Positions 49,089 to 64,000 of a stretch of 64,000 nucleotides of DNA are shown here, in pieces. The stretch covers positions 62,001-126,000 of the forward strand of contig CAJTBO010000002.1 in NCBI GenBank assembly GCA_910573755.1. The letters run 5' to 3'. Source of the stretch: Lachnospiraceae bacterium. Lineage in GTDB: Bacteria; Bacillota; Clostridia; Lachnospirales; Lachnospiraceae. Each line of letters begins with the position of its first letter. Position 1 is the first letter of the stretch. A model generated the notes under the pieces. The model was not told where the DNA came from and made no database searches. It was given only the letters and a program-made list of their open reading frames with translations. The position numbers and the translations under genes were made by a program.

Positions 49089-51284
49089 ATGGGTAAAATA
49101 AAAGAGAGAGAAGATACCGGCGGAATAGAGCGGATCGGGAAGGTAAGTCTGGATCTGACGCATTATCCGGGGGAGGATCTGTATTGCGACGGGGCGGTGG
49201 AGGATGAACTGCTGAGGATCGCCAGAGATTATGCGGAGGTGGAGTATCCGGGGATCATAGAGGATGGCAGAAACTGGGAACTGCTGTATCATCTGTCGGC
49301 ACAGCGGGAAAATATTGTGGAATGGCTTCCTATCGATAAAAGTATGAAGGTACTGGAAGTGGGGGCGGGCTGCGGCGCAATAACAGGAGCGCTTGCCGAA
49401 AAAGCGGGCAGTGTGACCTGTGTCGATCTGTCGAAAAAGCGCAGTATGATCAATGCCTATCGGCATACGAACTGTGAGAATGTGACGATCCATGTGGGGA
49501 ATTTTCAGGATATTGAACCGGACCTGCCCTGTGATTATGATTATATCTGCCTGATCGGCGTACTGGAATATGCACAGGCTTATATCGGCGGAGATGCGCC
49601 CTTTGAGAATTTTCTGAAAATCATCAAACATCATCTGAAACGCGCGGGACATATCGTGATCGCCATCGAAAATAAATTCGGGCTGAAATACTGGGCGGGA
49701 TGCAAGGAAGACCATCTGGGCACCTATTTTTCCGGATTAGAAGGCTATCCGGAGGGTGGTGTGGTGCGGACTTTCACAAGAAACGGACTGGAAAAGATAT
49801 TTGAAAACTGCGGAATAGAGGAGTACGCCTTTTATTACCCCTATCCGGATTATAAGTTTATGACCACGCTTTATTCGGATGAGCATCAGCCGAAGATCGG
49901 GGAACTTTCCAGCAATATCCGCAATTTTGACAGGGACAGGATGATACTGTTCGACGAGAAAAAGGTTTATGACAGTATATTGCGGGAAGGATTGTTCCCG
50001 TTATATTCTAATTCGTATCTGGCTGTGATCGGACCGAAGCCGTCTGTGTGTTATGTGAAATATTCCAATGACAGACAGAGAGAATACCGTATCAGGACAG
50101 AGATCCTGCCTGTTTCGCTGACAGGGATGGAAGGCAGGGAAGGGATGACGCCGGAGGAGGAAAGCCATCTGCCGAAGCTCCTTGCTGTGAGAAAACATCC
50201 GTTATGTAAAGAGGCACAGGAACATATCAGAAATATTGACAGAGCTTACCGGAAACTGAAGGATCGATACAGCGGCGGGGAATTGCGGATCAACCGCTGT
50301 AAGCTGGTGGAAACACCGGAAGAAGATTTGTATGTGGAACTGGAATATATAGAGGGCGTTACGCTGGCGGAGCTTCTGGATAACTGTCTGGAGCGGGACG
50401 ATATGGAAGGCTTTATGGAGCTTTTCCGGAAATACCTTGTGTTGGTGGATCATCACAGCAGAGAGCCGGTGTCGGATTTCGATCTGATCTTTTCCAATAT
50501 ATTGATCAGTGCGAAAGATGCGGCAAAACCCCTTGATGCGCTGCACAACAGCGTCTGGACGCTGATCGATTATGAGTGGACATTCGGAAAACAGGTGGAT
50601 ACGAAAGAACTGGCATTCAGGGCCGTTTATTGTTATCTGCTGGAGGATGAGAAGAGAAATAAATTAGGGCTTGATCTGATCATGCAGGAGTTGGGAATTA
50701 AAGACGAGGAAGCGGAGGAATACCGGATGCAGGAAAGGGCGTTCCAGCGGTTTGTGACGGGGAATCACCGCTCTATGGTGGAGATCCGGGATCTGATCGG
50801 CCACAAATGTTTTAGACCGGAAGGGTTTCTGGAAAAGATCCGCTTAGAAGAGAGGCGCGGGCGCATCCAGATATATGAAGACCGGGGACAGGGATTTCAG
50901 GAGGAGGCTTCCTTTTTTGCGGATGAGCAGATGACGGAGGATGAACAGGGAATCCATCTTGCCTTGCCGGTGGAGGCAGGAGTAAGGCAGCTTCGGATCG
51001 ATCCGGCGTTTGCCGACTGTATGGTGCGGATAAAACAGTTGAACTGGAATGATAACGCTCTGGCATGGAGCGGGAAGGCATCTGTGCTTACGGCGAACGG
51101 GACAAGGCTGGACGAGACGGGCAGTTTTGTTTTTTCCACGGAGGACCCGAATCTGGTGATCTCACTGCAGGATCAGCCTTTTGAGGAAGTAAATTTTCTG
51201 GAGGTTTGTATGGAACGCTCCTTCATAGGAAGGGAGATGGCGCTGGATATCGAAAATGCGGCAAAAAGGAGGCTCCGTCTGTGA
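49089..51284 (+). CDS. Methyltransferase-kinase protein, WbdD-like chain terminator candidate
   Basis: A 731-residue cytoplasmic protein. The N-terminal SAM-dependent methyltransferase has motif I VLEVGAGCGAITG (about residues 87-100), VTCVDLSKKR and YICLIGVLEYA. The centre carries kinase-like motifs: a catalytic-loop pattern DFDLIFSN (about 461-468) and a metal site in LIDYEWTFG (about 491-498). A beta-rich tail closes it. The same order occurs in WbdD, which phosphorylates and methylates the end of the O8/O9a polymer to stop growth. The ATG at 48999 touches the AAGGAGG site with no spacing, so ATG 49089 (GGAGAAAG at 5 bases) was chosen; this is not certain. Function is inferred from domains and location. 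Confidence 0.6.
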   Translation: MGKIKEREDTGGIERIGKVSLDLTHYPGEDLYCDGAVEDELLRIARDYAEVEYPGIIEDGRNWELLYHLSAQRENIVEWLPIDKSMKVLEVGAGCGAITGALAEKAGSVTCVDLSKKRSMINAYRHTNCENVTIHVGNFQDIEPDLPCDYDYICLIGVLEYAQAYIGGDAPFENFLKIIKHHLKRAGHIVIAIENKFGLKYWAGCKEDHLGTYFSGLEGYPEGGVVRTFTRNGLEKIFENCGIEEYAFYYPYPDYKFMTTLYSDEHQPKIGELSSNIRNFDRDRMILFDEKKVYDSILREGLFPLYSNSYLAVIGPKPSVCYVKYSNDRQREYRIRTEILPVSLTGMEGREGMTPEEESHLPKLLAVRKHPLCKEAQEHIRNIDRAYRKLKDRYSGGELRINRCKLVETPEEDLYVELEYIEGVTLAELLDNCLERDDMEGFMELFRKYLVLVDHHSREPVSDFDLIFSNILISAKDAAKPLDALHNSVWTLIDYEWTFGKQVDTKELAFRAVYCYLLEDEKRNKLGLDLIMQELGIKDEEAEEYRMQERAFQRFVTGNHRSMVEIRDLIGHKCFRPEGFLEKIRLEERRGRIQIYEDRGQGFQEEASFFADEQMTEDEQGIHLALPVEAGVRQLRIDPAFADCMVRIKQLNWNDNALAWSGKASVLTANGTRLDETGSFVFSTEDPNLVISLQDQPFEEVNFLEVCMERSFIGREMALDIENAAKRRLRL

Positions 51285-53422
51285 GCAGTTATCTGAAAAA
51301 AGCGGTACAGAAGATTTTAATACGGAAAAGACATCGAATATATGAGGAACGGATTGCCCGGCAAGCCGTTCCTTATGGCGTCTGGCTGGAAAACCTGATC
51401 GGGCGGGAGAAGCAGGAGATCCTGCGCTGGAAGGAAGAGAAAGAGCGTGCAGGGGAGCGGCGTTTATCTGTGGCGATACTTTCCTGGCGGGAGTTTTGCG
51501 ATTGTATCTGCGAGGGAAAATACAGGGAAAGGCAGGAAGATCTGTGGATTGTTACACCGGCGGCATCTCATCTGGCGGATGAGGCGGCAGCGGAAGCGGA
51601 GCGGTATTTTCTGGAACATCCGGCGTGTGATATCGCTTATGGGGATGAAGACGGATATTTTAAACCGGGGTGGTCTCCGGATCTGCTGCTGTCTTTTTTC
51701 TACTTCGGAAACGTGTTTGCGGTGAGACGGGAACTTGCGGGAAAGGCTGCGGGGAAAATCTGCGCCGGCTGCGGGAAGAGTGCAGGGAAGCTGCCTGAAA
51801 GGGCAGAATCCGGCGAGTTTGATGCGGAGACAGCGAAACGGATTTACGAAATCGTACTTTACTGTATAGATGAGGCAAAGGAAGCGGGACATATCGAGAA
51901 GATACTGTTTTTCATAAAAGGACGGGGCGGTTTACAGGGGAAGACCGTTTTTTCGGAAGAGCAGAGGGAAGAAGAGGGAAAAACGAGAGCAGACGGCATG
52001 GCTTCTGATGATCGGTTTGAGAAGGGCTGGGGGATGGAGCCGGCTTTCGATGAAATAAAAAAGGGGCATCTCTATTCCGATGCGGAGATTCCGGCGGAAA
52101 AGGAAAAGCAGGAATTGGTATCGATCGTTATTCCGTCTAAGGATAATCCGGCAGTGCTCTCAAACTGCATTCACTCTCTGCGGGAACAGACGGCATATCA
52201 GAATTTTGAGATCATTGTGATAGATAACGGCAGTAATGATAAAAACAGGAAGAAAATCAGGCAGATGCAGCACCAGCTGAAGGAGGAATATTCATTCCGC
52301 TATATCTATATGCCGATGGCATTCAATTTTTCCGCTATGTGCAATATCGGCGCCGGGGAGGCGAAGGGAAAGTATCTGCTGTTTTTGAATGACGATATGG
52401 AGATTGTCAGAGAGGACTGGCTCTCTGTGATGGTGGCAAAAGCGGCAAAAAGTTACGTCGGAGCGGTAGGGGCAAAGCTGCTGTATCCCGATTCCGACAA
52501 GATCCAGCATCTGGGCATTACAAATATCCATCTGGGACCGGCGCATAAACTGCAGTTTTCTTCCGATAAAAAGGAATATTACCACGGGATCAGCAAATGT
52601 GCGGTGAACGTCTCTGCCGTGACCGGGGCATGTCTGCTGCTTCGGAGAGAGGTATTTGAGGAGATCGGGGGATTTGAAGAAAAGCTGCAGGTGGCGTTTA
52701 ATGATGTGGAACTTTGTTTTCATCTGCTGAGGGCAGGCTATCGTAATGTGTGCTGCAACCAGACTTTTTTATACCATCATGAGTCCCTGAGCCGCGGCTT
52801 CGATGCGGGAGAAGAGAAGGTGGCAAGGCTTCACCGGGAGAGGGATCTTCTGTATGCGGCTTACCCTGAAATGTGGAACAGTGATATATATTATTCGAAA
52901 AAGCTGGTGACGGATATTCTGGATCGGGGATATGCGCCCGCCTGCCGTTTTGAGGAAAAGAGGTTGTCAAAAAAGGCGGAAGCGGTGCGGATGGATGGAG
53001 GACTGAATCCGCTCTGGCACAATGAGTGTTTGTATATGGGATTGGAGTTTACAGGAGATGAGAGCGCCTGGAAGACAGGGAGGTCCGGCGGCGGAGATTA
53101 TTATATACAGGGCTGGTCTTATGCCGTGAATGTAGATAACAGCCGTTATGAAAAAAGCCTGCTGTTAAAACCGGCGATATCTGTAGGGGAGCAGGACGAA
53201 AAAGGGATGGAAGTCTGGAAGATCCCTTATGAGGAATGTTACAGACCCGATTTTCAGGAGAACCTGCCCTATATAGACCACCCGGCGCTCTGCGGGGTCA
53301 GTGTTTGGATTCCCCGGGATGCATTGCCGGCGGGGAAGTACCTGATCGGGTACCTTTGGGAGGATACCTGTTCAAGGCAGAAGCTTTACGGATTCAGCGC
53401 GGAGACATTGCTGGTAGAGTAG
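51281..53422 (+). CDS. Large GT2 glycosyltransferase
   Basis: A 713-residue protein. The N-terminal 270 residues are poorly conserved and contain a degenerate GT-A-like segment (CDIAYGDEDGYF). The GT2 domain starts near residue 280 with VSIVIPSKDNPAVLSNC, IIVIDNGSND and FLNDDMEIV (the metal-binding Asp pair), and the acceptor half has GACLLLRREVFEEIGGF. This resembles rhamnosyltransferases of O-antigen and rhamnan pathways. GTG 51281 has AAGGAGG 8 bases before it and overlaps the previous stop as GTGA. It is the last gene of the operon. Confidence 0.85.
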   Translation: MSSYLKKAVQKILIRKRHRIYEERIARQAVPYGVWLENLIGREKQEILRWKEEKERAGERRLSVAILSWREFCDCICEGKYRERQEDLWIVTPAASHLADEAAAEAERYFLEHPACDIAYGDEDGYFKPGWSPDLLLSFFYFGNVFAVRRELAGKAAGKICAGCGKSAGKLPERAESGEFDAETAKRIYEIVLYCIDEAKEAGHIEKILFFIKGRGGLQGKTVFSEEQREEEGKTRADGMASDDRFEKGWGMEPAFDEIKKGHLYSDAEIPAEKEKQELVSIVIPSKDNPAVLSNCIHSLREQTAYQNFEIIVIDNGSNDKNRKKIRQMQHQLKEEYSFRYIYMPMAFNFSAMCNIGAGEAKGKYLLFLNDDMEIVREDWLSVMVAKAAKSYVGAVGAKLLYPDSDKIQHLGITNIHLGPAHKLQFSSDKKEYYHGISKCAVNVSAVTGACLLLRREVFEEIGGFEEKLQVAFNDVELCFHLLRAGYRNVCCNQTFLYHHESLSRGFDAGEEKVARLHRERDLLYAAYPEMWNSDIYYSKKLVTDILDRGYAPACRFEEKRLSKKAEAVRMDGGLNPLWHNECLYMGLEFTGDESAWKTGRSGGGDYYIQGWSYAVNVDNSRYEKSLLLKPAISVGEQDEKGMEVWKIPYEECYRPDFQENLPYIDHPALCGVSVWIPRDALPAGKYLIGYLWEDTCSRQKLYGFSAETLLVE

Positions 53423-53434
53423 GGGTGCGAAAAT

Positions 53435-53464
53435 TTGCGATGTGCTTGAATGCGGTGTTACGAT
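53435..53464 (+). promoter_or_regulatory. Weak promoter candidate upstream of hsdM
   Basis: TTGCGA (53435-53440) and TACGAT (53459-53464) are 18 bases apart, each with four of six consensus bases. Base composition changes sharply to AT-rich at this point. If it is not used, hsdM would be read through from the polysaccharide operon. Confidence 0.25.
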
Positions 53465-53501: not shown

Positions 53502-55073
53502 GTGGCAGCAAAAGCAAAGATGAAAGAAATTTCTATGGAGGAGGCTCTATGGAAGTCTGCGGATAAATTGAGGGGGTCTGTAGAACCATCTGAATATAAG
53601 CATGTCGTTTTAAGTTTGTTTTTCCTAAAGTTTGCAAGTGATAAGTTTGAGGCTCAAAGAGCAAGAATCACTGCAGATGGTATGGAGAAATTTGTGGATA
53701 ATATTGCGTTCTATACAAAAGATAATGTGTTCTATTTGCCGCAGGAAAGCAGATGGACTTATATTATGGAGAACGCCAAGCGGGATGATATTGCTTTAAG
53801 GATAGATACAGCACTCTTTACGATTGAGAAAACGAATCCCATTTTAAAAGGCGCTTTGCCGGATAACTATTATTCCCGCTTACAGATCGATAAGGTTAAA
53901 CTGGCTTCTTTGCTGGATGAAATCAATAAGATTGACACGACAAAAGATAAAGAGAACGATATCATTGGTCGTATGTACGAATATTTTCTAAGTAAATTTG
54001 CGATTGCAGAGGGAAAAGGGAAAGGAGAATTCTATACACCAAAAACGATTGTCAATTTAATTGCAGAGTTGATAGAGCCCTACGATGGAACATTATATGA
54101 TCCGTGTTGCGGTTCGGGAGGTATGTTTGTACAGTCCATAAAATTTATTGAGGCACATCATGGGAATAAAAAGAAAGTTTCCATATATGGGCAGGAATAT
54201 ACAAATACAACTTATAAATTGGCGAAAATGAATCTGGCAATTCGGGGAATATCGGCGAATCTTGGAGAAATGGCAGCGAATACGTTTACAAATGACCAGC
54301 ATAAAGATTTGAAGGCGGACTATATTATGGCAAATCCGCCGTTTAATCAAAAAGAATGGCGTGCCGCTGATGAACTGACAGATGATGCAAGATGGAACGG
54401 GTACGAAGTACCGTCAACAAGTAATGCAAACTATGGGTGGATATTGAATATTGTATCAAAAATGTCACAAAACGGAGTGGCGGGCTTTTTGCTTGCTAAT
54501 GGTGCATTGTCTGATGATGGAACAGAGCTGAAAATCAGACAAAGACTGATTGAAAATGATTTAGTGGAAGCAATTTTGATATTGCCGAGGAATCTTTTTT
54601 ATACGACTGATATCAGTGTAACTCTTTGGATTCTGAATAAGAATAAAAAAGAGCGTACAGTGGATATGAATGGGGTGGGGAAACACTATCGCAATAGGGA
54701 AAAGGAAATACTCTTTATGGATTTGCGGCAGATAGGAAGTCCATATGAAAAGAGATACATAGAGCTGACAGAGGCGGATAGGGCAAAGGTGGTCGAAACG
54801 TACCATAACTGGCAGCAGGTAGGGTATGAGGATACTTACGAGAATATATCGGAATTTTGTTATTCTGCGGGGTATGATGAGGTGGCAGAAAAAGGATTTA
54901 CTCTTGTTCCAAGCAGATATATTGAGTTTGTGAATCGGGATGAAACGATTGATTTTGATACGAAGATGAAAACGCTTCAAGCGGAATTAAAGGAATTGCT
55001 GATTGAGGAAGAGAAATCAAAAGCGGATTTGCTGGAGGTGTTTAAGGAGTTGGGGTATGAAATCGAATTATAG
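53502..55073 (+). CDS. hsdM: Type I restriction-modification methyltransferase subunit
   Basis: A 523-residue HsdM. The N-terminal helical domain begins near MEEALWKSADKLRGS; the methyltransferase core has GEFYTPKTIV, DPCCGSGGMF (SAM binding) and NPPF at residues 278-281 (N6-adenine catalysis). The C-terminus is a coiled region that contacts HsdS. Two HsdM act with one HsdS to methylate adenines in a bipartite target. GTG 53502 has GGGGG about 9 bases before; ATG 53520 is an alternative. Its end overlaps hsdS by 17 bases. Confidence 0.95.
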   Translation: MAAKAKMKEISMEEALWKSADKLRGSVEPSEYKHVVLSLFFLKFASDKFEAQRARITADGMEKFVDNIAFYTKDNVFYLPQESRWTYIMENAKRDDIALRIDTALFTIEKTNPILKGALPDNYYSRLQIDKVKLASLLDEINKIDTTKDKENDIIGRMYEYFLSKFAIAEGKGKGEFYTPKTIVNLIAELIEPYDGTLYDPCCGSGGMFVQSIKFIEAHHGNKKKVSIYGQEYTNTTYKLAKMNLAIRGISANLGEMAANTFTNDQHKDLKADYIMANPPFNQKEWRAADELTDDARWNGYEVPSTSNANYGWILNIVSKMSQNGVAGFLLANGALSDDGTELKIRQRLIENDLVEAILILPRNLFYTTDISVTLWILNKNKKERTVDMNGVGKHYRNREKEILFMDLRQIGSPYEKRYIELTEADRAKVVETYHNWQQVGYEDTYENISEFCYSAGYDEVAEKGFTLVPSRYIEFVNRDETIDFDTKMKTLQAELKELLIEEEKSKADLLEVFKELGYEIEL

Positions 55074-55578
55074 GAAACTGGGCGAATATATTTGTCAAGT
55101 AGATATAAGAAATAAAGATTTGAAAGTCTCTCAGTTATTGGGAGTAAGTATCAGCAAATCTTTTATGAAGTCTATTGCAAATACTGTAGGAACAGACTTT
55201 TCAAATTATAAGGTAGTTCATAAAGGACAATTCGCATATGGACCAGTTACATCAAGAAATGGTGAGAAAATATCCATTGCATTGCTGAAAGAAGATGAGT
55301 GTATTATTTCAAGTTCGTATATAGTGTTTAAGATAGCAGATATAGAAAAGTTATTGCCAGAATATTTGATGCTTTGGTTTAAAAGACTGGAATTTGACAG
55401 ATATGCCAGATATAAATCTCATGGTAGTGTTCGGGAAATCTTTGATTGGAATGAGATGTGCAATGTATATTTGCCTATTCCTTCTATTGAAGAGCAGAGA
55501 AAAATTGTTGAAGCTTATATGAGTGTAGAGGAGAGAATTAATCTTAAACGGAAGATAAATGATAATTTAGCGGCTTGA
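55057..55578 (+). CDS. hsdS: hsdS 5' half: first recognition domain only
   Basis: The frame encodes 173 residues: one target-recognition domain (about residues 8-140, LLGVSISKSFMKSIANTVG) and the start of the central helix (IVEAYMSVEERINLKRKINDNL). It stops two codons after the recombination site at 55556-55569. A full HsdS has two recognition domains; the second lies just beyond, inverted. Flipping the cassette would restore a full-length gene. As it stands the product is a half-subunit, which in some systems can dimerise and work. ATG 55057 with AAGGAG at 7 bases is the start. The recognition domain differs from that of the second hsdS. Confidence 0.85.
   Translation: MKSNYRKLGEYICQVDIRNKDLKVSQLLGVSISKSFMKSIANTVGTDFSNYKVVHKGQFAYGPVTSRNGEKISIALLKEDECIISSSYIVFKIADIEKLLPEYLMLWFKRLEFDRYARYKSHGSVREIFDWNEMCNVYLPIPSIEEQRKIVEAYMSVEERINLKRKINDNLAA
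55556..55569 (+). repeat. Recombination site A (TAAATGATAATTTA)
   Basis: This 14-bp sequence codes INDNL in hsdS and marks the exact point where homology to the second hsdS stops. It is in the direct orientation, facing the inverted cassette. The same sequence occurs at 61537 and, reversed, at 56176 and 62157. Confidence 0.7.
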
Positions 55579-56175
55579 CATAGTTATGGCAATTATTTCT
55601 TGGAGTTTTTTGAGCTTTTGCATTTCACTTGTGTTTTCCTTCATTTGCTCCAAAACTTGATAGCCGACTATGCTGAATGCTTCGAGTTTTTCAGCAGATG
55701 GTTGTACCATCGGAAAAGAAGCCAATTCCTCGCCGGAAACTCGTTGCCTGCCACTTGAACCATTCATAAACTGTAATGCAAAAGTGACGAATCTTGAGTT
55801 CCTAATTAGAAAATAGTAGAAACAAGATGGCATATTATCCTTTGCAGCGAAAACGATGCATTCAGTCGATCCAAATGCAACTTCGCCGTCAGAAAGGATG
55901 TTTATGTATGCCGCTTTTCCGTTTTCGAGACATGGTGTAATTCGAGCGATAAGGGTGTCGCCGTTAATAAATCGAACACCTCCGTTATATGGTTTGATTA
56001 CGTCGCCGGTAGGTATGCAACCGTATGTTGGGAGTGTTGCCATTTCAAAGCAACGAGCTTCTTCGCCTTTTGCGAGGAAGCGAACAGGATTGACAAGGGC
56101 TATATCAGCCAATGTGCAATCCGGTTCTACATTAGCAATGAACAATTTATCAAAATATGCTTGTGCTGTTGCTTC
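55570..56175 (-). pseudogene. hsdS: Silent inverted second recognition domain cassette of hsdS
   Basis: A 606-bp segment on the minus strand encodes residues EATAQAYFDKLF through EIIAITMSSR, the second recognition domain and C-terminal helix of HsdS. It matches the expressed copy at 61551-62156 over its whole length, with one difference I can find (a Cys codon in place of Tyr near 55857). It has no start of its own. Sites A and B lie at its ends in inverted orientation, so inversion would fuse it in frame to the upstream half gene and end that gene in TAA inside the site. It is therefore a switchable module, not a decaying relic. Confidence 0.8.
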
Positions 56176-56188
56176 TAAATTATCATTT
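56176..56188 (-). repeat. Recombination site B, joined to the truncated DUF262 gene
   Basis: TAAATTATCATTT, the reverse of site A with 13 of 14 bases. Immediately to its right the DUF262 gene continues (TTTGGCAGTATTG), so the right flank is unlike that of site D. The site overlaps codons for YHFF of the DUF262 protein. Confidence 0.65.
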
Positions 56189-58400
56189 TTTTGGCAGTAT
56201 TGTATATGTCTCAAATGATGTTGGTGGATGCAATGAGCATATTATAATTGATGGTCAGCAGAGGATTACTACGGTTTCTTTACTCTTACTGGCGATTAGG
56301 AATTACATTATAGAACATCCGGATCTTGACACAGGTGTGAATCCAAGGAAGATTACAGATGCTTATTTGACGGATGTATATGCAAACAGCGAGAAAAAGT
56401 TGAAACTTAAGTTGATTCAAGGTGATGATGAGGCATATGACCGTTTGATAGAAAATGGCACTCCAATTGCCAATAATAATATTACTGCGAATTATAATTA
56501 TTTCTTTAAAGAAATTTCTAAACGTAATGCTTTGGAAATTAAGGGACTTTATGATGCTGTTATGAAATTGATTATTGTCAATATCAGCTTGAAACCACAG
56601 GATGGCGATGATCCACAGCTTATTTTTGAAAGTTTAAATTCAACTGGTTTGGGACTGGATGAGTCAGACAAAATCAGAAACTATGTTCTTATGGGAATGC
56701 CGGCAGCGAAGCAGGAGACTTTTTACAAAAAGTATTGGGAACCCTTAGAGAGACTCGTGTCACATAATGATATGAAAACCTTTATTCGCTATTATCTTTC
56801 GGTGAAAACAAGGGATTTATTTAAGGAAGACAGGTTGTATTTCAGATTTAAGAGTTTTCGTATGCATCAGGTTTGTACAATCGAAGAGATTTTTGAAGAT
56901 ATTTTGCTATTCGCTGGTTTTTATAAAACTATCCGTCAACCAATAAATAAGAAGAATAGTTATGAAGTCGTTTTGGCTAGAATCAATAAATTGGAAATAA
57001 AAAGCTGTACTCCTATTTTGATGGAATTATTTATTGCCCATGAACAGAACCAGCTAAGTGATACCGAATTAACAGATGCATTCCATACCTTAGAGAGCTA
57101 TATGGCACGAAGAATCATATGTGGTCTTGGAACACAGTATTATAACAAACTGTTTGTTGGTTTGGGAGCAGAGATTGAAAAACTTTTGGAGAAAGGTGGA
57201 GCTGCGTATTTAGATGCTTTTAAATCTGCCTTATTAAATAAATCAGGAAAAAGCCGCTTCCCAAATGATCACGATTTTATGGATAAATTTATGACTTTTG
57301 AACTTTATAATGCAAAAGCATCTGTCAGAAAATATTTTCTTGAGCGGTTTGAAAATTTCGGAAACCGTGAAATGATAGCGGTTGAGGAACAAATCAGTGA
57401 TGGTTCTTTAACTATTGAGCATATCATGCCTCAAACATTGACGGAAGAATGGAAGGTGGGGTTAGGAGAACAATGGGAATTAATATATTCCAAATATATT
57501 GATACGATTGGTAATTTGACATTAACAGCGTACAATAGTGATTACAGTAATCTCAGTTTTATAAAAAAGAAAACTTTACCAGAGAAAGGTTTTGAGACAA
57601 GTAAGTTACGGTTGAATGAGTATGTCAAAAATTGTGAGTCTTGGGGAGAAAGTGAAATCCTTGAACGTGCCCGACAATTATATAAATTAGCGGAACAGAT
57701 CTGGCCTATGGCTGAAACAGATTATGAATCGCAGGAAGAAGATAATTGGATTTGCTGGGATGATGAGGATTATGATTATACAAATAAAACCATTCTAAAA
57801 ATTGTACTCATGGGAGATGAGCTGCAGACTGAAAATATTACAGATGCTTATCGGAAAATCAATGTGACTGTTTATAATATGGATCCGGCCGGCTATGTGG
57901 CAATGGAAAACTCTTGGAGTGGAACAGATGTGAGGAGAATTCGCAGCCCCTATGAGATAGGACCATCAGTTTATATTACTACGAATCTTAATTCTCAATC
58001 CAAGGCGGCTATAAGAGAATTATGTGAATATTTTAAGTTTGATTCCTCAGATTTGCGGTATTTAGTAAAAGCTACATTTGATATTAATAATGAGGCAACA
58101 TATGATGCTGTAACTGCAGGACAGCTGGCATATCGGCTTATAGAAAAGTTATTGACAGAAGACAAATTAACGGAACAGGAAGTTGAACAACTTAAAGAAA
58201 AAGAATTTTGCAGAAAAATGTTTTATAAAGTTGTATATCCAGTGCTGGCTAACAACAGGGAAGACAATAGAGGGAAAAGCAAGAAATGTCGCTATTATAG
58301 CAAGCCGATTCAATTTAGAGGAAAGAATATATACATATCGACAGAGTGGTTTGATGAGAGCAGAAAAGATCTGGTGGAATGGTATAAACGGCATACATAA
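56189..58400 (+). pseudogene. 5'-truncated DUF262/DUF1524 (GmrSD-like) gene
   Basis: The frame continues for about 737 residues from the recombination site; the open frame extends a little further left to an ATG at 56157 inside the hsdS cassette, on its antisense. It joins the DUF262 family at FFGSIVYVSN, then has the catalytic HIIIDGQQRITTVSLL and, later, the HNH-type DUF1524 segment IEHIMPQTLTEEW with NLTLTAYN. DUF262 proteins normally have about 60-90 residues before this, including an IPxYQRxYxW motif; these are absent. The family includes GmrSD type IV enzymes that cut modified DNA. The loss probably makes it inactive. Confidence 0.75.
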
Positions 58401-58444
58401 AAAATTAGCGCTGAAAATATCAGGATTGAAATGGAGGCCGCAAA

Positions 58445-59785
58445 ATGGCAGAGAGTCAAAATATAGAATGGAAAGAATCGTGGCGTGACGAATATCTTAA
58501 ATGGATATGTGGATTTGCAAACGCACAGGGGGGCAAAATTTATATTGGAACACGAGATGATGGAACGGTAATTGGAGTTAGTAATTCAAAAAAGCTGTTA
58601 GAGGATATTCCCAATAAAATCCAAAACAAATTGGGAATTATGGTGGATGTAAATTTGCTTACTGAAGGTGAATTGGATTATATTGAGATAGTCGTTAACC
58701 CTTGGTCGTTTCCTGTAAATTATAATGGAGAATATCATTACAGAAGCGGCAGTACAAAACAGCTGCTTCGGGGGAATGCATTGACGAGTTTCTTAATGGC
58801 AAAGACAGGGCTAAAATGGGATGCGGCGACAATATCCAATCTTGGAGTAGATGATCTGGATCAGGAGAGCTTTGATATTTTCAGAAGAGAGGCCTTGCGA
58901 AGCGGGCGAATGACAAAAGAAGATCTGGATATTGCGAATGTCGAGCTGTTGGAAAAACTGGATTTAGTAGTAGATGGAAAACTTAAACGCGCAGGGGCAT
59001 TGTGTTTTTATCGCAACCCAGAAAAGCTTATTGGTGGATGCTATGTGAAAATCGGAAAATTTGATGGCAGTGAGTTATTATATCAGGATGAAGTGCATGG
59101 TTCTTTGCTTATTTTGGCAGATAGGGTGATCGACCTGATTTATTTAAAATATTTGAAAGCAGCAATTTCATATTACAAAGAAACAAGAGTGGAAACCTAT
59201 CCTTTTGCTCGTGATGCCGTAAGAGAAGCAGTTTTTAACGCTTTGATTCATTGCAATTGGGCTGACAATGTTCCAGTACAGATACGTATCGAAGATGATG
59301 CCATGTATATCAGTAATTGCAGCATGTTGCCTTTTGGCTGGACGGTTGAGACACTTTTAAGCACACATGTATCAAAGCCATACAATCCTGATATTGCAAA
59401 AGTATTTTATCGTGCAGGATATATTGAGAGCTGGGGACGAGGGATTCAGAAGATTCGGGATGCCTGCAAAAATCTCGGGGCGGATGATCCTGAGTATATT
59501 GTTCATGGAGAAGATATTATGGTGAAATTTTCTGCCCTCCAAAGTGCCAAAGTTTTAGATACCAAAGCCCTAAATGTCACAAAAGATGTCACAAAGGATG
59601 TCGCAATAGAAATAAAAATATTAGCTTTACTTAAAGAAAATGCATCTATTACTACCACTGAAATGGCCAGGAAGCTATCTGTTAACAGACGAACAATTCA
59701 GAGAAGCCTGGATGTATTAAAGAGTAAAGGTACGATTGAACGCAAGGGTGGTAAACGATATGGTTATTGGGAAGTTTACGAATAG
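58445..59785 (+). CDS. AlbA_2 / ATP-binding transcriptional-regulator-like protein
   Basis: A 446-residue protein. The N-terminal AlbA_2 (Schlafen-like, divergent AAA-4) domain has NIEWKESWRDEYLKWICGFAN and GGKIYIGTRDDGTVIG. The centre has a GHKL-type ATPase-like domain, with REAVFNALIHCNW and GRGIQKIRDAC. The end is a winged helix (TTTEMARKLSVNRRTIQRSLDVLKSKG). These proteins are common in defence and mobile regions; some act as regulators, others as parts of defence systems. AT-rich codon use matches its neighbours. It starts 44 bases after the DUF262 frame. Confidence 0.75.
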   Translation: MAESQNIEWKESWRDEYLKWICGFANAQGGKIYIGTRDDGTVIGVSNSKKLLEDIPNKIQNKLGIMVDVNLLTEGELDYIEIVVNPWSFPVNYNGEYHYRSGSTKQLLRGNALTSFLMAKTGLKWDAATISNLGVDDLDQESFDIFRREALRSGRMTKEDLDIANVELLEKLDLVVDGKLKRAGALCFYRNPEKLIGGCYVKIGKFDGSELLYQDEVHGSLLILADRVIDLIYLKYLKAAISYYKETRVETYPFARDAVREAVFNALIHCNWADNVPVQIRIEDDAMYISNCSMLPFGWTVETLLSTHVSKPYNPDIAKVFYRAGYIESWGRGIQKIRDACKNLGADDPEYIVHGEDIMVKFSALQSAKVLDTKALNVTKDVTKDVAIEIKILALLKENASITTTEMARKLSVNRRTIQRSLDVLKSKGTIERKGGKRYGYWEVYE

Positions 59786-59877
59786 TTTTTGTATTCCCAT
59801 CGTACCATTCCCAGAAGAGAAGGGATGTATATTTTCGCTGGAGTAATCAATATTGGAGTGATAATGATATAGAAAGA

Positions 59878-59904
59878 TTGAGCAGAATCAAGGAATATTA
59901 TAAT
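59878..59904 (+). promoter_or_regulatory. Candidate promoter upstream of the recombinase
   Basis: TTGAGC (59878-59883) and TATAAT (59899-59904) are 15 bases apart, shorter than ideal. It lies in the 259-base gap before the recombinase gene. Confidence 0.3.
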
Positions 59905-59973
59905 TGAAGAATTATAATCTGAAAAAACTTCTGTAGTGCAAATCGTCCATTTAAATGTGTAGATTTTCCTCAT

Positions 59974-60010
59974 CAACGGCGGGGGTATTCAAGTTAAAGA
60001 ACAGCCGTTG
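59974..60010 (+). repeat. Inverted repeat in front of the recombinase gene
   Basis: CAACGGC (59974-59980) pairs with GCCGTTG (60004-60010) over a 23-base loop, in the leader of the recombinase gene, 34 bases before its start. It may be an operator or an RNA hairpin that tunes recombinase level. Confidence 0.35.
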
Positions 60011-60044
60011 CTTGTCGTTCTCTAAATAAAAAGGAGAAGTGACA

Positions 60045-61028
60045 ATGAAAGAACAATTCATCAATGAAATACAGAGAAAAATGTTGCCATATCTTAATAA
60101 TGAGCAATTAGTAAAACTCAAAAACATACTGATAGAATCTGTACAAGGATTGACTATCTGTGATGATGGAAATGGACAGCAATTGGAAGAACTTGATGCA
60201 GTTAAAGTATTTATTGGAGCAAAGCGTATTGAAGGGTGCTCTGAAAAAACATTGAATTATTATCAAAGTACGATAGAGGCTATGCTTTTCAACATTGGAA
60301 AAGCAGCACAACAAATTACGACAGATGATCTGCGATGCTATTTAATTGATTATCAGACACAACGGTGTTCCAGTAAGGTTACGATTGATAATATCCGGCG
60401 GATATTATCCAGCTTTTTTTCATGGCTTGAAGACGAAGATTATATCGTAAAGAGTCCTGTACGAAGAATCCATAAGGTAAAAACAGCAAAAGTTGTTAAG
60501 GACACTTATACAGACGAGGCAATGGAAATTATGCGTGATGGATGTGGTAATATTCGTGATTTGGCTATTATTGATTTACTGTCATCATCTGGAATGCGAA
60601 TTGGAGAAATGGTAACACTTAACAGAGAGGATATCAATTTTAATGAACGGGAATGTGTCGTTATGGGCAAGGGGAATAAGGAAAGACTTGTTTATTTTGA
60701 CGCACGGACAAAAATCCATTTGCAGAATTACTTGGGAAGCCGTACAGATACTAATCCGGCTCTTTTTGTATCACTCAATATTCCATGTGATAGATTAACG
60801 ATTGGCGGAGTAGAAAAACGTTTGCGAGAACTTGGTCGAAAGCTGGGAATCCCCAAAGTTCATCCCCATAAGTTCCGGAGGACGTTAGCAACGACAGCAA
60901 TAGATAAAGGGATGCCTATTGAACAGGTACAGCAGCTTTTAGGGCATCAGAAAATTGATACAACCATGCATTATGCAATGGTAAAGCAGCAAAATGTAAA
61001 ATTGGCGCATAGGAAATATGTAGGATGA
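60045..61028 (+). CDS. Tyrosine site-specific recombinase, likely hsdS invertase
   Basis: A 327-residue XerC/D-type integrase. The N-terminal core-binding domain (SAM-like) spans about 45-135; the catalytic domain carries Arg185 (SSGMRIGEM), His275-x-x-Arg278 (HPHKFRRTL), His301 (LLGHQK) and Tyr310 (MHYAMV), so the set is complete. It starts at ATG 60045 with AAGGAG at 8 bases; a GTG two codons before is too close to that site. Recombinases of this kind next to duplicated hsdS genes invert the specificity cassettes in phase-variable type I systems. It ends 9 bases before the second hsdS. Confidence 0.85.
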   Translation: MKEQFINEIQRKMLPYLNNEQLVKLKNILIESVQGLTICDDGNGQQLEELDAVKVFIGAKRIEGCSEKTLNYYQSTIEAMLFNIGKAAQQITTDDLRCYLIDYQTQRCSSKVTIDNIRRILSSFFSWLEDEDYIVKSPVRRIHKVKTAKVVKDTYTDEAMEIMRDGCGNIRDLAIIDLLSSSGMRIGEMVTLNREDINFNERECVVMGKGNKERLVYFDARTKIHLQNYLGSRTDTNPALFVSLNIPCDRLTIGGVEKRLRELGRKLGIPKVHPHKFRRTLATTAIDKGMPIEQVQQLLGHQKIDTTMHYAMVKQQNVKLAHRKYVG

Positions 61029-61037
61029 GGTATTGAT

Positions 61038-62159
61038 ATGGAAGAGCATAAAAGCATAGATGAACTTGTGATAAGAGTTGATGAACGCAATATAGATGAA
61101 AGCATATCAGAACTGATTGGCGTCAGTATTGATAAATGTTTTATTAAGTCAGTAGCAAATGTTAATGGAACAGATTTGTCAAAATATAAAATTATCCGGA
61201 AAGATGATTTTGCTGTAAGTCTTATGCAGGTTAGCCGAGATGGAAAAATACCAGTTGCAAGAATGATAGAGTATGATGTTGCGATAATGTCGCCAGCATA
61301 TCCTATTTTTAGAGTAAAAGACAAGAACATTATTCTTCCTGCATACCTCGATATGTGGTTCAAGAGACCAGAATTTGACAGAGAAGCTGCCTTTATTGCG
61401 GTTGGTGGGGTAAGAGGAAGTATGCCTTGGGAAGAATTTGCAAAGATGAAGCTACCCGTTCCAGATATTGACAAGCAAAAGAAAATTGTAGAGGCATATG
61501 AAGCCATTACAAATCGAATAGAGCTTAAACAGAAGATAAATGATAATTTAGAAGCAACAGCACAAGCATATTTTGATAAATTGTTCATTGCTAATGTAGA
61601 ACCGGATTGCACATTGGCTGATATAGCCCTTGTCAATCCTGTTCGCTTCCTCGCAAAAGGCGAAGAAGCTCGTTGCTTTGAAATGGCAACACTCCCAACA
61701 TACGGTTGCATACCTACCGGCGACGTAATCAAACCATATAACGGAGGTGTTCGATTTATTAACGGCGACACCCTTATCGCTCGAATTACACCATGTCTCG
61801 AAAACGGAAAAGCGGCATACATAAACATCCTTTCTGACGGCGAAGTTGCATTTGGATCGACTGAATACATCGTTTTCGCTGCAAAGGATAATATGCCATC
61901 TTGTTTCTACTATTTTCTAATTAGGAACTCAAGATTCGTCACTTTTGCATTACAGTTTATGAATGGTTCAAGTGGCAGGCAACGAGTTTCCGGCGAGGAA
62001 TTGGCTTCTTTTCCGATGGTACAACCATCTGCTGAAAAACTCGAAGCATTCAGCATAGTCGGCTATCAAGTTTTGGAGCAAATGAAGGAAAACACAAGTG
62101 AAATGCAAAAGCTCAAAAAACTCCAAGAAATAATTGCCATAACTATGTCAAGCCGCTAA
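61038..62159 (+). CDS. hsdS: Full-length hsdS specificity subunit
   Basis: A 373-residue HsdS with two recognition domains: the first (about residues 10-145, GVSIDKCFIKSVANVNGTDLSK) and the second (about 185-345, PVRFLAKGEEARCFEMATLP). Conserved helices lie between them (IVEAYEAITNRIELKQKINDNLEA) and at the end. It makes the complete DNA-binding subunit that sets the target for HsdM and HsdR. The second half is the same 606 bp that is present, inverted, at 55570. The stop TAA is part of recombination site D. GATGAGG before ATG 61038 is the ribosome site. Confidence 0.9.
   Translation: MEEHKSIDELVIRVDERNIDESISELIGVSIDKCFIKSVANVNGTDLSKYKIIRKDDFAVSLMQVSRDGKIPVARMIEYDVAIMSPAYPIFRVKDKNIILPAYLDMWFKRPEFDREAAFIAVGGVRGSMPWEEFAKMKLPVPDIDKQKKIVEAYEAITNRIELKQKINDNLEATAQAYFDKLFIANVEPDCTLADIALVNPVRFLAKGEEARCFEMATLPTYGCIPTGDVIKPYNGGVRFINGDTLIARITPCLENGKAAYINILSDGEVAFGSTEYIVFAAKDNMPSCFYYFLIRNSRFVTFALQFMNGSSGRQRVSGEELASFPMVQPSAEKLEAFSIVGYQVLEQMKENTSEMQKLKKLQEIIAITMSSR
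61537..61550 (+). repeat. Recombination site C (TAAATGATAATTTA)
   Basis: It is identical in sequence and orientation to site A and encodes the same INDNL residues. It marks the left end of the expressed second recognition domain. A and C are direct repeats, so recombination between them would remove the 6 kb in between and fuse the first half of hsdS at 55057 to this second domain. Confidence 0.7.
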
Positions 62160-62170
62160 ATTATCATTTA
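62157..62170 (-). repeat. Recombination site D, containing the hsdS stop codon
   Basis: TAAATTATCATTTA is the exact reverse of sites A and C and starts with the stop codon of the full-length hsdS. Sites C and D bound the expressed cassette. It lies 35 bases before the hsdR start. Confidence 0.7.
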
Positions 62171-62205
62171 GGGTAAAATATTTGACAAAAGGGAGATAAA
62201 ACAAA

Positions 62206-64000
62206 ATGTCATTCAACGAGCGTGCATTAGAACTATCTATCATAGAACTTCTACAAAACAAAGGCTATATCCATCAGATAGGCAATGAATTGATCCGTGA
62301 AAAGTCAGAAGTTCTGATAGTAGGCGATTTAAAAAAATATTTGCATACCCGATATGTTTCGGATGAACTGACAGAAAGTGAAATTGACAGCATTATTCTC
62401 TCTTTGCGCACCGTAGGTGGAACTTTGTATGAATCCAACAAAACAATTATGTCCATGATAATAGACGGATTTGTGTTCAATCGTGAGGATAGGGATAAGA
62501 AAGATATATTTATCGAATTGATAAACTATGGAGAGCCGGGGAAAAATATCTTTAAGATTGTAAACCAGTTAGAGATAGAAGGATGTAATTATCAGGTTCG
62601 TATTCCTGACGGTATTATTTATGTGAATGGACTTCCACTGGTGGTATTGGAATTTAAGACCGCAATACAGGAAAACACAACCATAATGGATGCATACACG
62701 CAGTTGACAGTCAGATATCAGAGAGATATCCCGGAAATTTTCAAATGCAATGCATTCGTGGTTATCAGCGACGGGGCAAACAGTAAGTATGGCTCATTAT
62801 CCACCCCATATGAATTTTTTTACGCTTGGAGAAAGGTTCATGATGATGACAGGGAAATGGACGGCATCAATTCTTTGTTTACAATGATAGACGGCTTGTT
62901 TGCACAGGACAGGCTTCTTGCGGTGATAAAGAACTTTATCTATTTTCCTGACGCTTCAGACAAAAATACAAAAGTAGTGTGCCGATATCCGCAGTTTTTT
63001 GCAGCCAACAATCTGTATGAAAATGTGAAAGCACATATGAAGCCGAATGGCGATGGCAAGGGCGGTACATATTTTGGAACGACTGGATGCGGAAAAAGCT
63101 ATACAATGCTCTTTCTTACCCGAATGATTATGAAAAGCAGTTATTTTAAAAGTCCAACTATTTTAATTATTACTGATAGAACCGATTTAGACGATCAGCT
63201 TTCCAAACAATTTGTTGCGTCGAAACAGTTTATTGGGGATAACAATGTAATAAGCATAGAGTCAAGGGATAAGTTGCGTGAAGAATTACAGGACAAGCCA
63301 AGCGGCGGGGTGTATTTGACTACAATACAGAAGTTTACGGAAGATACGCAGCTTTTAACAGACAGATATAATGTGATCTGCATTTCGGATGAGGCTCACC
63401 GTTCACAGATTAATCTTGATATGAAAGTGAAAGTTACGGATAAAGGCGTAAATAAAACGTATGGTTTTGCCAAGTATCTGCATGATTCTTTACCGAATGC
63501 AACCTATATTGGTTTTACAGGGACACCGATTGATGCCACGGTGGAAGTATTTGGAGATATTGTCGGGCATCCATATACCATGACAGAAGCAGTGAAAGAT
63601 GAAATAACAGTAAATCTTGTTTATGATGGAAGGGCGGCAAAGGTAACATTGCGTGAGGATAAGCTGCGCGAAATTGAAGAATATTATGATAAATGCGCCA
63701 GTCTTGGAACGTCTGAAGAACAGATTGAGGAAAGCCAAAAAGCGGTAGCGCATTTGGATGCGATTATTGGCGATCCTGACCGGCTAAAGGCAGTAGCAAA
63801 AGACTTTGTATCATATTATGAGAAAAGAATAGAAGAAGGTTCTACAGTTGCGGGCAAGGCAATGTTTGTATGTGCAAACAGACTAATAGCTTATGCATTT
63901 TACCTGAATTTGATGGAACTTCGTCCTGAATGGAAAGAAAAGAGGAAAGTACCGGAGGGTATGGAATTATCGGAAAAAGAGGAAAAGGAATTAAAGCCAA
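62206..64000 (+). CDS. hsdR: Type I restriction subunit, 3' end cut off by window edge
   Basis: The first 598 residues of HsdR are visible. The N-terminal nuclease domain has the PD-(D/E)xK pattern in PDGIIYVNGLPLVVLEFK. The helicase motor has Walker A TTGCGKSY (about residues 290-297), DEAH at 395-398, and motif III FTGTPIDA. HsdR uses ATP to pull DNA and cuts it at a distance when the target is unmethylated. ATG 62206 has GGGAG at 10 bases. Because hsdR and hsdM lie outside the switching modules, both can be made in every arrangement. Confidence 0.95.
   Translation, partial: MSFNERALELSIIELLQNKGYIHQIGNELIREKSEVLIVGDLKKYLHTRYVSDELTESEIDSIILSLRTVGGTLYESNKTIMSMIIDGFVFNREDRDKKDIFIELINYGEPGKNIFKIVNQLEIEGCNYQVRIPDGIIYVNGLPLVVLEFKTAIQENTTIMDAYTQLTVRYQRDIPEIFKCNAFVVISDGANSKYGSLSTPYEFFYAWRKVHDDDREMDGINSLFTMIDGLFAQDRLLAVIKNFIYFPDASDKNTKVVCRYPQFFAANNLYENVKAHMKPNGDGKGGTYFGTTGCGKSYTMLFLTRMIMKSSYFKSPTILIITDRTDLDDQLSKQFVASKQFIGDNNVISIESRDKLREELQDKPSGGVYLTTIQKFTEDTQLLTDRYNVICISDEAHRSQINLDMKVKVTDKGVNKTYGFAKYLHDSLPNATYIGFTGTPIDATVEVFGDIVGHPYTMTEAVKDEITVNLVYDGRAAKVTLREDKLREIEEYYDKCASLGTSEEQIEESQKAVAHLDAIIGDPDRLKAVAKDFVSYYEKRIEEGSTVAGKAMFVCANRLIAYAFYLNLMELRPEWKEKRKVPEGMELSEKEEKELKP

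Follow-up and report, generated by a model that had tools for sequence, protein, structure and literature searches.

Several phase-variable type I restriction systems, among them SpnIII/cod with PsrA and those of Streptococcus suis and Listeria monocytogenes, combine type I genes with a tyrosine recombinase and short inverted repeats, and exchange target recognition domains (TRDs) (PMC7394358, PMC7096588, PMC7662400). The IR1 repeat of cod measures 15 bp, and the second hsdS gene of SpnIII-type loci is described as silent, having neither start codon nor promoter and lying on the opposite strand (PMC7394358). The pneumococcal tvr locus (SpnIV) also has recombinase-moved TRD segments and an RNA hairpin that limits recombinase expression; it is described as working by excision and reintegration at direct repeats and as having a transcription attenuator (PMC6265443). 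In Mycoplasma pneumoniae, where HsdS is controlled by the protease Lon, HsdS variants and a truncated HsdS rise upon protease depletion and no clear degron was reported (PMC7737663). GmrSD/RloF genes (DUF262), finally, have been reported between hsdS and hsdR of type I loci (PMC4619093). Here we describe a locus located at positions 53,502 to 64,000 of a 64,000-nucleotide stretch (the window) of a Lachnospiraceae bacterium genome (GCA_910573755.1, contig CAJTBO010000002.1, positions 62,001 to 126,000, forward strand), in which the orientation of hsdS cassettes may determine both the specificity of the system and the fate of its unfinished specificity subunits.

This locus belongs to the known phase-variable type I restriction systems and has an in-line design that occurs in dozens of loci, most of them from Firmicutes. 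As in other inverting type I systems, hsdM, hsdS, and hsdR lie within one locus, together with a second hsdS copy, shared inverted repeats, and a linked site-specific recombinase. Unlike SpnIII- and S. suis-type loci, it has no silent hsdS on the opposite strand: both TRD1 halves lie on the + strand with their own starts, the ATG at 55057 being preceded by the Shine-Dalgarno sequence AAGGAG, inversion is confined to the 3' cassettes, and a degron-like tail ends the unfinished product. It differs from tvr in that its sites are inverted and its leader covers the Shine-Dalgarno sequence, from M. pneumoniae in having a C-terminal tail that is written by DNA orientation, and from the reported GmrSD/RloF arrangement in that its DUF262 gene lacks the N-terminal part and is cut at a recombination site. 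An original prediction, made from the letters of the window, had described an invertible type I locus with a linked recombinase, and the 633-nt inverted repeat, four sites, and recombinase reported below bear it out; absent from it were the truncation of DUF262 at a site, the duplicated TRD2, the degron-like tail, the one-forward/one-inverted rule, and the structured leader.

Recognition-domain cassettes and recombination sites

The first hsdS gene (55057..55578, + strand; Methylase_S match) is a half gene encoding TRD1a only, a product of 173 amino acid residues with the C-terminus KINDNLAA, while the second (61038..62159, + strand; Pfam match and translation) is complete and encodes TRD1b and TRD2 in 373 residues. 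The second recognition domain, TRD2, is present in two cassettes, cassette 1 (55571..56174, - strand), which is inverted and open on the minus strand, and cassette 2 (61552..62155, + strand), which lies forward in an open frame. The frame of cassette 1 gave no Pfam match when searched alone, and we refer to it as TRD2 because it is identical with the second half of the complete hsdS, 632 of 633 positions being shared by the two cassettes. Including their sites, the cassettes span 55556-56189 and 61537-62170 in opposite orientations and thus form an inverted repeat of 633 nt; its one mismatch (55859/61867) results in a single residue difference (Cys/Tyr).

Comparison of the repeats determined that the cassettes are bordered by a 15-bp site, TAAATGATAATTTAG, present as S1 (55556-55570, + strand), S3 (61537-61551, + strand), and S4 (62156-62170, - strand), the last of which contains the hsdS stop codon. 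At S2 (56175-56189, - strand), 14 of the 15 bases are retained and one arm base differs, the outer arm there coming from the DUF262 gene. In the 4.88-Mb assembly of this organism, the exact 15-mer is found at three places, all within the locus, against a composition-based chance expectation of 0.0002 hits for the window; the same pattern read backwards has no match in the genome. A third cassette was rejected by searches of the assembly for both site and cassette.

Between the two cassettes lies an intact frame for a Xer-type tyrosine recombinase of 327 residues (60045..61028, + strand; Pfam Phage_integrase, E 5e-33), which scores above the cut-off of the NCBIfam XerA-type model and contains the motifs that we take to be those of the catalytic site. 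A second recombinase, 37% identical to that of the window, is encoded elsewhere in the genome (G000:C17:95240-96253).

Because cassette 1 is inverted, the first hsdS is only a half gene. When this cassette is turned over in silico at S1/S2, a 373-codon hsdS consisting of TRD1a and TRD2 results, equal in length to the TRD1b-TRD2 gene; TRD1a and TRD1b are 45% identical. Since both cassettes hold the same TRD2, the locus offers two full-length specificities, TRD1a+TRD2 and TRD1b+TRD2, and only the latter gene is complete in the present copy, as had been predicted on both counts. A locus with two different cassettes could provide four. We read the sites and alternative states from the sequence and from natural variants of relatives, and presume that the recombinase is active, also in the source strain.

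The half-HsdS ends in an ssrA-like tail

When the cassette is inverted, the frame of TRD1 passes through the site and stops two codons on, here at 55578, and TRD1b would gain the identical KINDNLAA tail if cassette 2 were to invert (in silico). The tail thus has the C-terminal Ala-Ala, here Leu-Ala-Ala, of ssrA-type degrons; the tag of the host's own transfer-messenger RNA is ADNKLALAA, and the host genome encodes ClpP.

Relatives were collected by scanning genome contigs for the recombinase, which yielded 571, of which the best 80 were kept, so that 81 loci including the window were compared. We read the corresponding tails from 138 cassettes and determined that 126 end in alanine, 7 in valine, 2 in serine, 2 in aspartic acid, and 1 in threonine (124 of 138 ended in alanine when reading was capped at 40 codons, the longer reading giving 126). 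The most frequent ends are NLAA (78) and NLVA (22). Codons and lengths vary among the 47 distinct DNA strings that encode these tails: the Ala-Ala codon pairs include GCG GCT, GCA GCT, GCC GCC, GCA GCC, GCT GCC, and GCT GCT. Ala-Ala or a similar end is also found on tails that differ in length (LRLQAA, LYAA, LCAA, LMVA). In three cassettes with long inserts, the frame continues over 34, 53, and 50 residues and ends in WVA, LLAA, and STAA, respectively, and in five cassettes, which are mutually about 70% or more alike, the tail lies beside the site even though the forward stop is found at a distance of about 200 nt. As controls, terminal alanine was found in none of the 138 full HsdS proteins and in 1 of 138 reads of the next frame; the third frame gave none, but it stops immediately in 132 of 138 cases and is thus little informative.

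Two additional sets, comprising 16 loci that share no DNA with the first set and 21 loci on viral contigs, were read as well: seven of seven tails end in alanine in the former and 12 of 16 in the latter, or 7 of 11 without the three viral-contig loci (L182, L184, and L200) that have long stretches in common with earlier loci. Two long viral-contig tails, of 28 and 21 residues, end in RRAA and RPAA. Three further loci that share DNA with the first set (L151-L153) were counted once only.

For ClpXP, terminal Ala-Ala is reported to be the main determinant (PMC7652416), and LVA, AAV, and SVA are among the known degron variants (PMC9382460). Engineered half-HsdS proteins have been reported to dimerise and to be active on palindromic targets (PMC6158711), which would provide a reason for removing them. 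From the sequences of these tails, we infer that unfinished HsdS subunits are degron-tagged for ClpXP. A link between an inverted hsdS and a degradation tag was found in none of the matches listed in our literature search.

One cassette forward, one inverted

Cassette orientation could be scored in 59 two-cassette loci. Of these, 31 have the order inverted/forward, 26 forward/inverted, two have both cassettes inverted, and none has both forward, so that exactly one cassette lies forward in 57 of 59 loci. If the cassettes flipped independently with equal odds, such counts would have a probability of about 3e-15, relatedness aside. Dropped from the 81 loci for this count were two near copies (L052, L069), four unscorable loci (L075, L085, L088, L093), and 16 loci in which a cassette is missing or more than one recombinase is present, including L042 (I,F,F) and L059 (F,F,I); both members of the near-identical backbones L029/L030 and L079/L094 were kept, and in three of the counted loci (L038, L053, L070) the recombinase segment is turned around with respect to hsdM.

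The same arrangement was found in three of three scorable loci among the 16 that share no DNA with the first set and in five of five among the 21 on viral contigs, i.e., in eight of eight, or in six of six after removal of L184 and L200. For these two counts, the two sites of a cassette were required to have an equal spacer (for the first of them, equal eight central bases), a requirement not applied to the first set; sites were searched with seven consensus versions at no more than two mismatches (three for the set of 16). On a quick recombinase tree of 57 loci, the orientation state changes 19 times, or ten times when weakly supported branches are ignored, against a mean of 19.1 when states are shuffled, which indicates that the two states switch freely.

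The data fit two readings of this rule alike: either a cassette's own two sites do not recombine with one another, which leaves only exchange between cassettes or excision and reintegration, or cells having two complete HsdS subunits, or none, are lost.

Natural rearrangements among relatives

In 11 of the best 80 relatives, HsdM is 80-94% identical to that of the window. Nine of these (one pair being identical) have the same four-site order, while L042 contains six sites and the contig of L044 ends within the locus. Alternative orientations were observed between close relatives belonging to species other than that of the window. L029 and L030 have a common flank of 5470 nt at 99.98% identity, with a 675-nt cassette that lies at position 1 in L029 and at position 2, inverted, in L030; in L079/L094, an 878-nt cassette is inverted in place at 99.8% identity. 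The near-identical backbones of L029 (8854-12186) and L030 (8881-12162) hold partly different cassettes (X,Y versus Z,X), from which it appears that, besides being rearranged, cassettes are also replaced from outside. Tandem modules of recombinase, TRD1, and cassette, the expectation from exchange between direct sites, are present in L042 (2894-8126) and L059 (8975-14742).

Among 104 cassette pairs common to different loci (near copies, including L052 and L069, being kept), all four classes of position and orientation are occupied: 23 share both, 19 share position with different orientation, 25 share orientation at a different position, and 37 differ in both. Cassettes can be more alike than the backbones that carry them, as in L043/L086 (91% identity for a cassette, 67% for HsdM). 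In all loci, the sites consist of arms near TAAA and TTTA around a 6-bp spacer, TGATAA in the window. Nine spacer versions occur across loci, and each of the 65 loci with at least four sites has one spacer throughout; when one cassette occurs in two loci whose spacers differ (L043/L086, L036/L089, L077/L079), the spacer of each copy is that of the locus in which it lies. Outside its own genome, the TRD2 cassette had only short, partial matches in a DNA search across the family, and in 12 of 19 more distant loci sites were found neither by consensus nor, in the same 12, by an 11-mer recurrence scan.

Several IMG/VR contigs end within a few bases of the recombinase gene (right ends of L183, L186, L189, L190, and L192; left ends of L182 and L199), and provirus boundaries may have been set at the recombinase of a restriction locus. 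Two short contigs labelled Cyanobacteria and Gastranaerophilales metagenome-assembled genome, L062 (1-3240) and L099 (1-3222), carry divergent hsdM and recombinase genes; both ends of each share one inverted sequence, TAAATTATTGTTTA, and they may represent another architecture or a circle.

A structured leader before the recombinase gene

Upstream of the recombinase gene, at 59966..60047 (+ strand), we identified a leader RNA, conserved in dozens of related loci, that consists of a hairpin (P1), an H-type pseudoknot that the P1 loop forms with a strand further downstream, and a second hairpin that covers the Shine-Dalgarno sequence. An alignment of 46 of 78 upstream regions, from which near copies and some differing upstream parts were excluded (e.g., L041, L047, L049, L062, L092, L099), showed that 93.4% of the cells pair and that 116 cells change on both sides, neither value being reached in any of 500 shuffles. 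Twelve pairs have a double change, a number reached in 25 of 500 shuffles, and partners slid along the alignment pair in 35-57% of cells.

A model of the leader (R1) matched its own genome at G000:C2:121966-122047 (E 4e-14). In 291 genomes of the class, it gave seven strong matches (E < 1e-11), six of them at loci with the same recombinase and one (G205) before a recombinase fragment, as well as five weak matches (E 0.0005-0.007) that have no recombinase nearby. The leader is not universal, since G264, with a recombinase 58% identical, has no match. As a listed Rfam family it was rejected: Rfam 15 gave no family, either for the window at E up to 1, where the single match was at chance level, or for seven further loci at gathering cut-offs. 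An "xerDC motif" was not found; the one relevant paper describes a STAXI motif, which is a different structure.

A DUF262 gene truncated at a site

Between S2 and the recombinase gene lies a GmrSD/DUF262 (RloF-like) gene (56184..58400, + strand), the 5' end of which is missing, GmrSD_N being matched only from profile position 39. Its frame begins inside cassette 1 and S2, and homology starts at the CATTT of S2. All 13 homologs detected in 397 genomes of the family align only from residue 8-10 of the window frame, and in the five examined there are 52 residues between the first methionine of the open frame and the start of the alignment. The DGQQR motif and the GmrD domain are present in the window gene, and the missing N-terminal part includes a YQR stretch that we have taken for the conserved QR pair. 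We rejected an intact gene, as every homolog starts earlier, as well as a missing start located elsewhere in the assembly, where the search gave no more than two weak short matches and a paralog on C10 that is 46% identical. This paralog (G000:C10:39053-43844, identity over the start) lies near one of the further type I hsdS genes of the genome, which are located on C9, C10, C31, and C42.

At the place equivalent to S2, read on the strand of the site, the homolog L102 has AAAATGAGAG, compared with AAAATGATAA at S2 (8 of 10 positions), and the homolog L103 matches at 7 of 10, by eye. It is therefore plausible, on this resemblance, that the DUF262 gene was cut by recombination at a site-like sequence within it. 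The intervening genes had been predicted to make the arrangement unusual; this view is not supported, since extra DNA between S2 and the recombinase gene is common, the close relatives examined carrying 81-916 bp there, including an 89-codon open reading frame in L032, and since DUF262 genes are described between hsdS and hsdR elsewhere (PMC4619093). None of the 11 close relatives has a DUF262 gene between hsdM and hsdR, and this particular cargo is thus the window copy's own.

Remaining genes and surroundings

All genes named in the original prediction were located, by profile matches in every case but that of cassette 1. The type I DNA methyltransferase gene hsdM (53520..55073, + strand) matches Pfam N6_Mtase (E 2e-97) and HsdM_N; its start is likely the ATG at 53520, although the GTG at 53442 is possible too. 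Downstream of DUF262, a gene for an AlbA_2/HATPase_c_4/helix-turn-helix protein of 446 residues (Pfam) occupies 58445..59785 (+ strand). The hsdR gene (62206..64000, + strand; Pfam), of 1046 residues, passes the end of the window and extends on the contig to 65346 in window numbering. Genes that by eye resemble those for glycosyltransferases flank the locus on both sides (window 51206-53422, L004 15437-18001), which suggests that the restriction island is placed inside a surface-polysaccharide region.

Discussion

We consider it likely that this locus combines recombinase-driven shuffling of TRD2, a degron-tagged half-HsdS, and a rule that keeps one cassette forward. The recombinase would exchange strands at the four sites, between TAAA/TTTA arms that enclose the shared 6-bp spacer TGATAA, and would thereby move or invert TRD2 cassettes, joining TRD1a or TRD1b to TRD2. 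Behind a TRD1 followed by an inverted cassette, the frame would run through the site to the far end of the cassette and stop at KINDNLAA, of which the C-terminal Leu-Ala-Ala would act as an ssrA-type degron, so that ClpXP would remove a half-subunit that, having its own ribosome site, could otherwise dimerise and recognise a palindromic target. Degron and one-forward rule together would leave one specificity subunit at a time. In the copy found in the window, the two TRD2 cassettes have become identical and DUF262 was cut at a site, probably via a site-like internal sequence. To the more specific proposal, that DNA inversion itself appends a proteolysis tag, the frame at the far end of the cassette giving the half-HsdS an -L(A/V)A tail by which unfinished subunits would be destroyed, and that this, with obligate one-forward/one-inverted cassettes, would amount to bacterial allelic exclusion, we give an even chance.

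A number of observations weigh against this account. Terminal alanine is absent from 12 of the 138 tails and from 4 of 16 viral-contig tails (4 of 11 without the DNA-sharing loci), and in two loci, L047 and L082, neither cassette lies forward. When the half-HsdS was modelled with AlphaFold (mean predicted local distance difference test score, pLDDT, 87.9), its C-terminus formed a long helix (144-172; pLDDT of the last block 71) with the tail as its tip, i.e., as a helix end and not as a free strand. Green fluorescent protein carrying LAA alone was reportedly not degraded by Escherichia coli ClpXP, while longer tags led to degradation (PMC7652416), and the tail could serve another purpose. Moreover, with identical inverted cassettes on either side, the middle segment is one whose orientation a short-read assembly would be unable to establish.

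The tail could also be a by-product, the locus being plainly phase-variable and Ala-Ala-stop reflecting DNA that is conserved for the recombinase or a shared ancestry of cassette ends. GCGGCTT(A/G) is indeed the commonest DNA at the 3' cassette end, three strings account for 74 of the 138 tails, and cassettes move between loci, so that many tails are related by descent. However, the 5' cassette end has other DNA behind the same core, alanine tails are written in other codons and lengths (LRLQAA, LYAA, LCAA, LMVA, YDVAA), and in three cassettes the alanine tail lies 84-141 nt further from the site, in frame, so that we think this explanation unlikely, if one to be kept in mind. We regard it as improbable that the half-HsdS is instead kept and dimerises to provide a second, palindromic specificity, its C-terminal alanine serving assembly. 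Its gene has a good ribosome site and engineered half-HsdS proteins form active enzymes (PMC6158711), but the forward state would lose the palindromic specificity, and the variation among tails (LAA, LVA, QAA, MVA, AV) largely resembles that of known degron variants (PMC9382460), not a structural contact.

That the locus is frozen, its truncated cargo and identical cassettes marking a decayed, non-switching system, appears just as improbable: the duplicated TRD2 does narrow the choice and DUF262 is broken, but the catalytic motifs are present, the four spacers are identical, both hsdS frames are open once joined, and a single difference in 633 bases between the cassettes points to recent exchange. 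We are nearly evenly divided, leaning slightly against, over whether the one-forward rule reflects strong selection for a single complete HsdS and not the chemistry of recombination. Selection would agree with the counts (none of 59 loci with both cassettes forward, two of 59 with both inverted), and a degron on the half protein would fit in with it; yet equal counts would arise if a cassette's own sites did not recombine. Lactococcal cells, moreover, tolerate several HsdS proteins, which counts against such selection.

What makes the locus most interesting is the one-forward rule in combination with the conserved tail on the unfinished subunit. Phase-variable type I systems alter both the methylome and the phage resistance of a lineage, and loci such as this one make testable how two target subunits at once are avoided and what becomes of half-made subunits. 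With the cassette ends and the leader RNA as markers, further loci of this kind can be sought in genomes and metagenomes. If our reading is true, a degron encoded by orientation would be a new coupling of DNA rearrangement to protein turnover.

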